From positions 1-64,000 of the forward strand of contig QIDH01000057.1 in the NCBI GenBank assembly GCA_003229305.1: a stretch of DNA of 64,000 bases. The letters run 5' to 3'. This document shows, piece after piece, positions 40,403 to 41,590 of the stretch. The notes under the pieces were generated by a model, which saw only the letters and a list, made by a program, of their open reading frames with translations, ran no database searches and was not told the origin of the DNA. The DNA comes from Acidimicrobiia bacterium (GTDB taxonomy: Bacteria; Actinomycetota; Acidimicrobiia; Spongiisociales; Spongiisociaceae). Both the position numbers and the translations under genes were made by a program. The stretch's first letter is position 1, and every line of letters begins with the position of its first letter.

Positions 40403-41425
40403 CTACGACACGCCGACTGAGCGAGAGCGGCGTCGATTGCGTCTTGCCTGGCCTCTTTCGATCTCATCTGAGACGCGGCCGAGCCGGTCCGAGATCTCTT
40501 CCGTGGTCGGTCGCGGCCCAGAGAGGTCGGCGTCCACCGTGGACCGGATGACGCTGATGTGGTCGAAGCTTGAACCGCAGCATGCTCCGACGATGCGAGC
40601 TCCCGCCCGCACCGCGAGTTCTGTGTAGGCGGCCATGTCCTCTGGGCCTGACGGATAGCTGAGAGCTTCGTCCTTGTAGAGCGGGATGCCACAGTTTCCC
40701 TTCGCAATCACGATCGCGTCCGGGGCGGCGGCGGTGATGGCGGCTGCCGCCTGCACCACGTCTGAGGGTCCGACTCCGCAGTTAGCCCCGATGGCCGTTG
40801 GCCGGGTTTCATGTCCGAGCCACCATTCGCCGATAGATGTCGGGGCGATCCCCATCATCGTGTGCCCGTTGGTGTCGAAACTCAGTGTGGTGACCACTGG
40901 GATGTCTCGTCCGGACGCTGCCTCGACCGCCGCCGCGAGTTCTTCCCACGACGAGATGGTCTCGATCCACAACACGTCGACGCCCGCCTCGATCAGGGCA
41001 TCAGCCTGTTCGGAGAAGATTCGCACGCCCTGGTCGTGGGTGAGCGGCCCTAGCGGTTCGAACAGCTCACCTGTAGGACCCATCGAGCCGGCGACAGCGA
41101 CCATTCGGTCGGCATCGTCGGCAACCTGCCTTGCGACGCCGACAGCTGCCCGGTTAAGTTCTGCGACCCGGTCCTCGAGCCCGTGGAGCGCCAACCTGGC
41201 GCGGGTGCCGCCGAAAGTATTGGTGAGGACGATGTCCGCTCCAGCTTTGACGTACCCTGAGTGAACTTTGGCGATCAGATCAGGCTGGTCGACGTTGAGG
41301 AGCTCTGGACAACCCCCGCTTTCGAGGCCTAGCTCGAACAGCGCGGTGCCCATCGCTCCATCTGCCACCAGGACCCGCTGCTCAGTCAACAGTTCGGTGA
41401 ATATCGACGGTCCGGCGGTGCTCAT
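40403..41425 (-). CDS. Homocysteine S-methyltransferase family protein (BHMT-like)
   Basis: LVADGAMGTALFELGLESGGCPELLN; VLTNTFGGTRARLALHG; GANCGVGP; GARIVGACCGSS; AAGGAG upstream of ATG at 41425. Confidence 0.92.
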   Translation of the reverse strand: MSTAGPSIFTELLTEQRVLVADGAMGTALFELGLESGGCPELLNVDQPDLIAKVHSGYVKAGADIVLTNTFGGTRARLALHGLEDRVAELNRAAVGVARQVADDADRMVAVAGSMGPTGELFEPLGPLTHDQGVRIFSEQADALIEAGVDVLWIETISSWEELAAAVEAASGRDIPVVTTLSFDTNGHTMMGIAPTSIGEWWLGHETRPTAIGANCGVGPSDVVQAAAAITAAAPDAIVIAKGNCGIPLYKDEALSYPSGPEDMAAYTELAVRAGARIVGACCGSSFDHISVIRSTVDADLSGPRPTTEEISDRLGRVSDEIERGQARRNRRRSRSVGVS

Positions 41426-41513
41426 ACTGTGACTCCTTGATGGGTCAGCAGCGGTGACGAAAGGAGGCCTTGACGATGCCAGTGCGGCGGATTGCGGATC
41501 GTCGCCTCTAGGC

Positions 41514-41566
41514 GTCGCTTTAGCGGCATTTCGTGAGCGCCCGCAAGCTGACTTCAAATCGGCGCT
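41514..41566 (-). ncRNA. SAM-II/SAM-V-class S-adenosylmethionine riboswitch aptamer
   Basis: - strand AGCGCC-GATTTGAAGTCAGCTTGC-GGGCGCT-CACGAAATGCC-GCTAAAGCGAC: 6-bp P1 (AGCGCC/GGCGCT), conserved GATTTGA...CTTGC...AAATG..GCTAAA, pseudoknot GTC-AGC / GCT...GAC. Confidence 0.85.
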
Positions 41567-41584: not shown

Positions 41585-41590
41585 AGTATA
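41585..41590 (-). promoter_or_regulatory. -10 element TATACT placing a transcription start just upstream of the riboswitch
   Basis: - strand TATACTGTGTCGACAATAAGAATAAGCGCC. Confidence 0.5.

Follow-up and report, generated by a model that had tools for sequence, protein, structure and literature searches.

In a member of an Acidimicrobiia order (Actinomycetota), an aptamer homologous to the SAM-II class stands at a fixed place before bhmT, and in most relatives a hairpin with a T-run lies between the two. We consider it likely that this is a riboswitch of the SAM-II class which shuts bhmT off, via a transcription terminator, when S-adenosylmethionine (SAM) is plentiful; the aptamer class is well supported, and ligand binding and termination we infer. 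The riboswitch class itself is known. What appears to be new is its presence in this host group, for which a search of non-subscription literature found no earlier report linking SAM-II with Acidimicrobiia. To our knowledge, SAM-II has so far been reported almost only from Proteobacteria.

The aptamer and its class

Inspection of the window (the whole stretch of DNA analysed, 64,000 nucleotides) revealed a complete SAM-II aptamer on the minus strand at 41566–41514, which reads in order AGCGCC GATTTGA AGT CAGCTTGC G GGCGCT CACGAAATGCC GCTAAAGCGAC (Table 1). The sequence, strand, coordinates, 6-bp P1, core blocks and P2 pairing were all as the earlier note had described them. All six pairs of P1 (AGCGCC/GGCGCT) are perfect, in keeping with the loop-closing P1 of about 6 bp in SAM-II, and GUCAGCUUGC can pair with GCUAAAGCGAC to form the pseudoknot P2. 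The SAM-II core nucleotides GAUUUGA, CUUGC and GCUAAA are all present in alignments to Rfam and to a model of the relatives, with GCTTGC at 41548–41543 (−), GAAATG within the joiner and GCTAAA at 41524–41519 (−), inside the P2 3′ strand. In SAM-II and SAM-V structures, U residues equivalent to those of GAUUUGA contact SAM (PMC6061858). The P2a extension comprises 3 bp (GUC/GAC) in the window, short of a stable 5-bp helix, and 1–5 bp among relatives. Because a 5-bp P2a is given for about 60% of SAM-II and some known members lack it (PMC6061858), we did not count the short P2a as excluding SAM-II.

Table 1. Positions in the window of the aptamer parts, the downstream hairpin and the bhmT signals
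Feature	Position	Strand	Basis or remark
TATACT, −10-like hexamer	41585..41590	−	5/6 to TATAAT; ends 18 nt before P1
P1 5′ strand AGCGCC	41561..41566	−	pairs with 41541–41536
GAUUUGA (DNA GATTTGA), third strand of SAM-binding triplex	41554..41560	−	conserved in relatives
P2 (pseudoknot) 5′ strand GUCAGCUUGC (DNA GTCAGCTTGC)	41543..41552	−	pairs with 41524–41514
P1 3′ strand GGCGCU (DNA GGCGCT)	41536..41541	−	pairs with 41566–41561
P2 3′ strand GCUAAAGCGAC (DNA GCTAAAGCGAC), with conserved SAM-binding UA-AA	41514..41524	−	covariance-model alignments
Candidate terminator hairpin GAGGCGACGAU...AUCGUCAAGGCCUC	41464..41508	−	dG −16.6 kcal/mol; CUUUCGUC behind
Short U-run CUUUCGUC	41456..41463	−	after hairpin; sequence
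Shine–Dalgarno AAGGAG	41433..41438	−	sequence; 7 nt before ATG 41425
bhmT, betaine–homocysteine S-methyltransferase, 340 aa	40403..41425	−	NF005718 414 bits (cut-off 338), PF02574 218 bits

In a local Rfam scan the element matched RF00521 (SAM_alpha, that is, SAM-II) over the full model length with 26.2 bits (E 6.8e-4). This lies below the Rfam gathering cut-off of 36 bits, which is a curated threshold and not a structural feature, and a scan of the whole window at that cut-off therefore returned no SAM-II match. Within the host's own genome the element was the best RF00521 match (E 6.2e-4), the next scoring 15.4 bits. A covariance model trained on 19 relatives, with the window left out, gave it 67.5 bits (E 2e-16), and 9.5 bits to the next place in the window. 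SAM-V (RF01826) had no match at E ≤ 10 in the local Rfam scan of the element. The earlier suggestion of a SAM-II/SAM-V class thus stood in its SAM-II half, on RF00521 and the relatives' model, and was not supported in its SAM-V half; the Rfam search that went with it gave the RF00521 match at a score below the gathering cut-off, and left SAM-V unmatched.

Two other Rfam matches were set aside, GA-cis (17.4 bits) as chance and Bp2_287 on the plus strand (19.3 bits) as an antisense reading of the same SAM-II element. The Bp2_287 family (RF02424, ‘Burkholderia sRNA’) matches the antisense of SAM-II in the window (41487–41565, +) and at two other loci, L007 (1471–1618, −) and L179 (1461–1605, +). 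Its consensus can be read as the reverse complement of the SAM-II subtype seen here, and the family may therefore be a mis-stranded SAM-II riboswitch.

The core is invariant over 29 distinct aligned rows, and the DNA upstream and downstream is not evidently alignable between families. CAGCUUGC, in the P2 5′ strand, is nearly invariant among relatives, and GCUAAAGCG does not vary across 38 aptamers. In the 29 rows, 98.0% of P1/P2 cells are paired (98.3% for P1 alone), as against 29.5–53.3% in slid versions of the alignment. Five of the six P1 pairs never change, the outer pair being A-U or C-G; in P2 the inner pairs are invariant and pair 23-60 varies between U-A, C-G and U-G. Double changes thus occur at two pairs, and the covariation score of 0.037 was reached by none of 500 shuffles, which ignore kinship. 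Covariation was a check that the earlier note had named; it came out as one compensatory pair in P1 and one covarying pair in P2, with the rest almost invariant. Because 12 of the 14 pairs never vary, this support is modest, and structural support comes mainly from conservation and the covariance model. A permutation test of P2a pairing was not significant (p 0.09).

Distribution in the order and beyond

RF00521 matched at E ≤ 0.001 in 33 of the 138 genomes of the order, and 15 genomes exceeded the gathering cut-off; within the window's family the element scores 38–46 bits, above that cut-off, in 12 genomes. A search of the order for true BHMT (E ≤ 1e-71) gave 46 genomes, of which one has just a fragment that lacks a leader. 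Reading the bhmT leaders revealed four further aptamers, which brings SAM-II to 37 of the 45 readable leaders, the window included. All 37 aptamers lie within 200 nt upstream of bhmT, 93–184 nt before the BHMT N-terminal motif, and SAM-II precedes only bhmT in these genomes. The dedicated model also found no match in the eight leaders without an element (six genomes of one genus, G045 and G081). On the BHMT tree, where the Acidimicrobiia sequences form one clade (100/99), the label of SAM-II presence has to change twice, consistent with an early origin in the clade and two later losses.

At class level RF00521 matched in 31 of 395 Acidimicrobiia genomes, all in the window's order, and over phylum samples of Actinomycetota it matched nothing but the window; these were sample searches with speed filters, the class-level one missed G036, and they therefore do not prove absence elsewhere. 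The actinobacterial placement that the earlier note had called unusual, should the host be confirmed, holds for an Acidimicrobiia order with the element before bhmT in 37 genomes. Outside the order, a search of Actinomycetota samples with the subtype model yielded one further convincing case, in a genome of another class, G566. Here two SAM-II-like aptamers stand in tandem (L208/L210, G566:C34:4725-4906) before metK (TIGR01034, 518 bits); the first is followed by a strong terminator, an arm of which, CGCTTTGGC, can pair with GCTAAAGCG. Rfam found nothing at this locus at E ≤ 0.1.

Transfer of riboswitch and bhmT together from the sampled Proteobacteria is not supported, because the scanned proteobacterial, myxococcal and chloroflexal BHMT relatives have no SAM-II leader and because the Acidimicrobiia BHMTs are one clade. 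The window's own BHMT (L001 in the tree) groups with proteins of family f3 and not with those of its own family, f1 (support 88/94), which suggests exchange of bhmT within the order. In two Myxococcales loci (L043, L044) the BHMT homologue is flanked on both sides by pyrrolysine insertion elements (RF02510, mttB). The bhmT-carrying members of the window's family (G002–G014 except G006) gave a single homocysteine-methyltransferase match each; they may therefore lack MetH and may depend on BHMT.

With this distribution in hand, three other accounts of the conserved block can be weighed. Chance resemblance in a GC-rich leader, which the sub-threshold Rfam score might suggest, is already refuted by the independent model (E 2e-16) and by conservation in 37 genomes. 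We judge it improbable that the block is something other than a SAM sensor, be it a variant with a changed ligand, a protein-binding DNA or RNA site, or coding sequence. An open frame that starts at TTG 41647 does cross the block and enter bhmT in phase, but the conserved loops differ in length by single bases, the distances from aptamer to gene among the relatives do not keep to multiples of three, and the flanks are unconserved; conservation for coding was rejected on these shifts in loop length and gene distance. The SAM-II core positions are kept, moreover, and the same subtype precedes gammaproteobacterial metZ-, metK- and metF-like genes, all of methionine/SAM metabolism. By homology to characterised SAM-II, SAM is very probably the ligand of the window aptamer. 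That it might be a translational SAM-V riboswitch, with the Shine–Dalgarno sequence inside the 3′ pseudoknot, we regard as highly improbable. SAM-V and SAM-II have the fold and the binding core in common, Pelagibacter has SAM-V before bhmT, and the short P2a of the window resembles that of SAM-V; against this, SAM-II matches at E 7e-4 where SAM-V has no match at E ≤ 10, and a typical SAM-V lies ten nt or less from the start codon, whereas here the distance is 88 nt and the Shine–Dalgarno sequence is far outside the aptamer. The element almost certainly belongs to SAM-II.

The bhmT leader and the proposed switch

The target, described earlier as BHMT-like, is identified as bhmT, a gene of methionine/SAM metabolism, by an NF005718 score above cut-off, and its ATG at 41425 lies 88 nt downstream of the aptamer, where a start about 90 nt away had been proposed. 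The Shine–Dalgarno sequence lies about 75 nt past the aptamer end at 41514, unlike the placement in SAM-V. The TATACT hexamer that had been read as a −10 element is present upstream of P1; no −35 match was found. A TAnnnT hexamer occurs 10–22 nt before P1 in 19 of the 37 homologous leaders, against a mean of 2.1 in shuffled ones. A VanW-like gene diverges from 41672.

A strong hairpin with a T-run separates aptamer and gene in about 33 of the 37 leaders, of which the scan gave 31 and visual inspection two more, L052 and L054. The window hairpin was not detected by the simple terminator scan; it bears a 3-nt bulge, its apical loop region is long, and its U-tract is weak, with only three U in succession. 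When the 3′ part of the leader was folded alone, the terminator at 41508–41464 formed. In the unconstrained fold of the window leader, GCGACGCC and ACGAAA of the aptamer pair with the 3′ arm of the hairpin and the U-run, the joiner ACGAAA (41534–41529) pairing with UUUCGU of the U-run region. The fold without the pseudoknot contains P1 and this antiterminator (−44.6 kcal/mol). With the P2 strands kept unpaired, the terminator stem forms only in part in the minimum free energy fold, and the helix ACGAAA/UUUCGU persists. Several leaders show complementarity between the hairpin and the P2 3′ strand (L020, GCTAAAGCG/CGCTTTAGC; L022, over 13 nt), as would be required of an antiterminator that competes with a SAM-bound pseudoknot. 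Shuffle tests of this complementarity in individual leaders mostly gave p 0.01–0.3. For the window, antiterminator complementarity was no better than in shuffles (p 0.28), nor was the leader's folding energy (z 0.09, single-sequence folding).

Known SAM-II elements bind SAM, are often followed by terminators and are regarded as OFF switches (PMC1273637); most of them act on transcription (PMC6061858). Transcriptional OFF control is reasonably likely here too; its direction and the antiterminator we infer. SAM binding would lock the P1/P2 pseudoknot and so withdraw GCUAAAGCGAC from an antiterminator in which this strand and the ACGAAA joiner would pair with the downstream hairpin, at its 3′ arm and U-run. 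The hairpin at 41508–41464, once freed, would form, and transcription would end before bhmT. Without SAM, the antiterminator would form, bhmT would be made and homocysteine would be remethylated.

We think it unlikely that the SAM-II aptamer acts on translation instead, with SAM altering access to AAGGAG, for example via CUCCUU at 41467–41462. CUCCUU is a perfect complement of AAGGAG (41438–41433), the U-run of the window is poor, and two relatives (L023, L025) have no terminator; yet most relatives have a plain hairpin and T-run between aptamer and gene, and in the window folds the Shine–Dalgarno sequence pairs mainly with a local stem and not with CUCCUU. Because the terminator of the window is imperfect, dual or translational control via CUCCUU/AAGGAG is possible beside the transcriptional OFF switch that we favour.

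Comparison with known SAM sensors

SAM-I (RF00162) is likewise a class of SAM sensor, with a fold unrelated to that of the window element, and no species in a 2007 survey had SAM-I together with SAM-II. In the present set 44 of 59 relatives gave a SAM-I match above cut-off, and the window's genome has two copies (C29, 74.2 bits; C21, 64.4 bits); there is no SAM-IV in these genomes. Both classes share one contig in G003 (of 3.0 Mb), in G030 (C4) and in G049 (C35), and a binning artefact was therefore rejected as the source of the co-occurrence. SAM-I precedes OsmC-like genes and a gene for a Cys/Met PLP enzyme in these genomes, not bhmT; one copy (L117, G000:C21:2208-2294, +) lies 20 nt before a 369-aa open reading frame without a Pfam or NCBIfam match. 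Perhaps, and we hold this evenly balanced, the order has kept a proteobacterial-type SAM-II as a dedicated bhmT switch since the ancestor of the BHMT clade, with SAM-I controlling other genes. If so, two unrelated SAM sensors divide the regulon of one cell, possibly with different SAM set-points. With both classes in the same actinobacterial genomes, why two SAM sensors are kept can be asked within one cell.

With SAM-V, as found before bhmT and metY in Pelagibacter, the window element shares the fold, the ligand core and bhmT as a target; SAM-V, however, is translational and sited at the start codon, and its model does not match the element. With RF00521 SAM-II it shares the single P1, the H-type pseudoknot P2, the GAUUUGA/CUUGC/GCUAAA core, a site before a methionine-cycle gene and a terminator-like hairpin downstream. 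It differs in its 3-bp P2a, as against about 5 bp, its GCUAAA followed by GCG, its score below cut-off, its actinobacterial host and the restriction of the element to bhmT in these genomes. Classical alphaproteobacterial SAM-II has a CGUGG/CCACG P1 and a GGUCGG-type P2a, whereas the subtype seen here has a GCGCC/GGCGC P1 (in the window AGCGCC/GGCGCU) and a short P2a. In six alphaproteobacterial loci (L162, L169, L174, L175, L176, L177) a second SAM-II/V-like core, GATTTGA-GGGG-CAGCTTGC and GCTAAAGCGC, follows the first after about 120–170 nt, making tandem aptamers.

The features of the subtype (P1 AGCGCC/GGCGCU, CAGCUUGC, GCUAAAGCG and a short P2a) are shared with gammaproteobacterial SAM-II. 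The Acidimicrobiia-trained model scores gammaproteobacterial and some alphaproteobacterial SAM-II at 70–75 bits (70–74 for the gammaproteobacterial subtype), and classical alphaproteobacterial SAM-II at 29–32 bits. RF00521 matched in 77 of 229 sampled gammaproteobacterial genomes, in 57 of these 77 only below the cut-off. A large part of a subtype that is common both in Gammaproteobacteria and in the window's order thus escapes this cut-off. By inspection of products, the gammaproteobacterial elements precede metZ-, metK-, metF- and methionine-transporter-like genes. Their core (for example in L128, L179 and L189) is near-identical to that of the window, including P1 and GCUAAAGCG, but none of those examined stands before bhmT, the gene that the window's element precedes.
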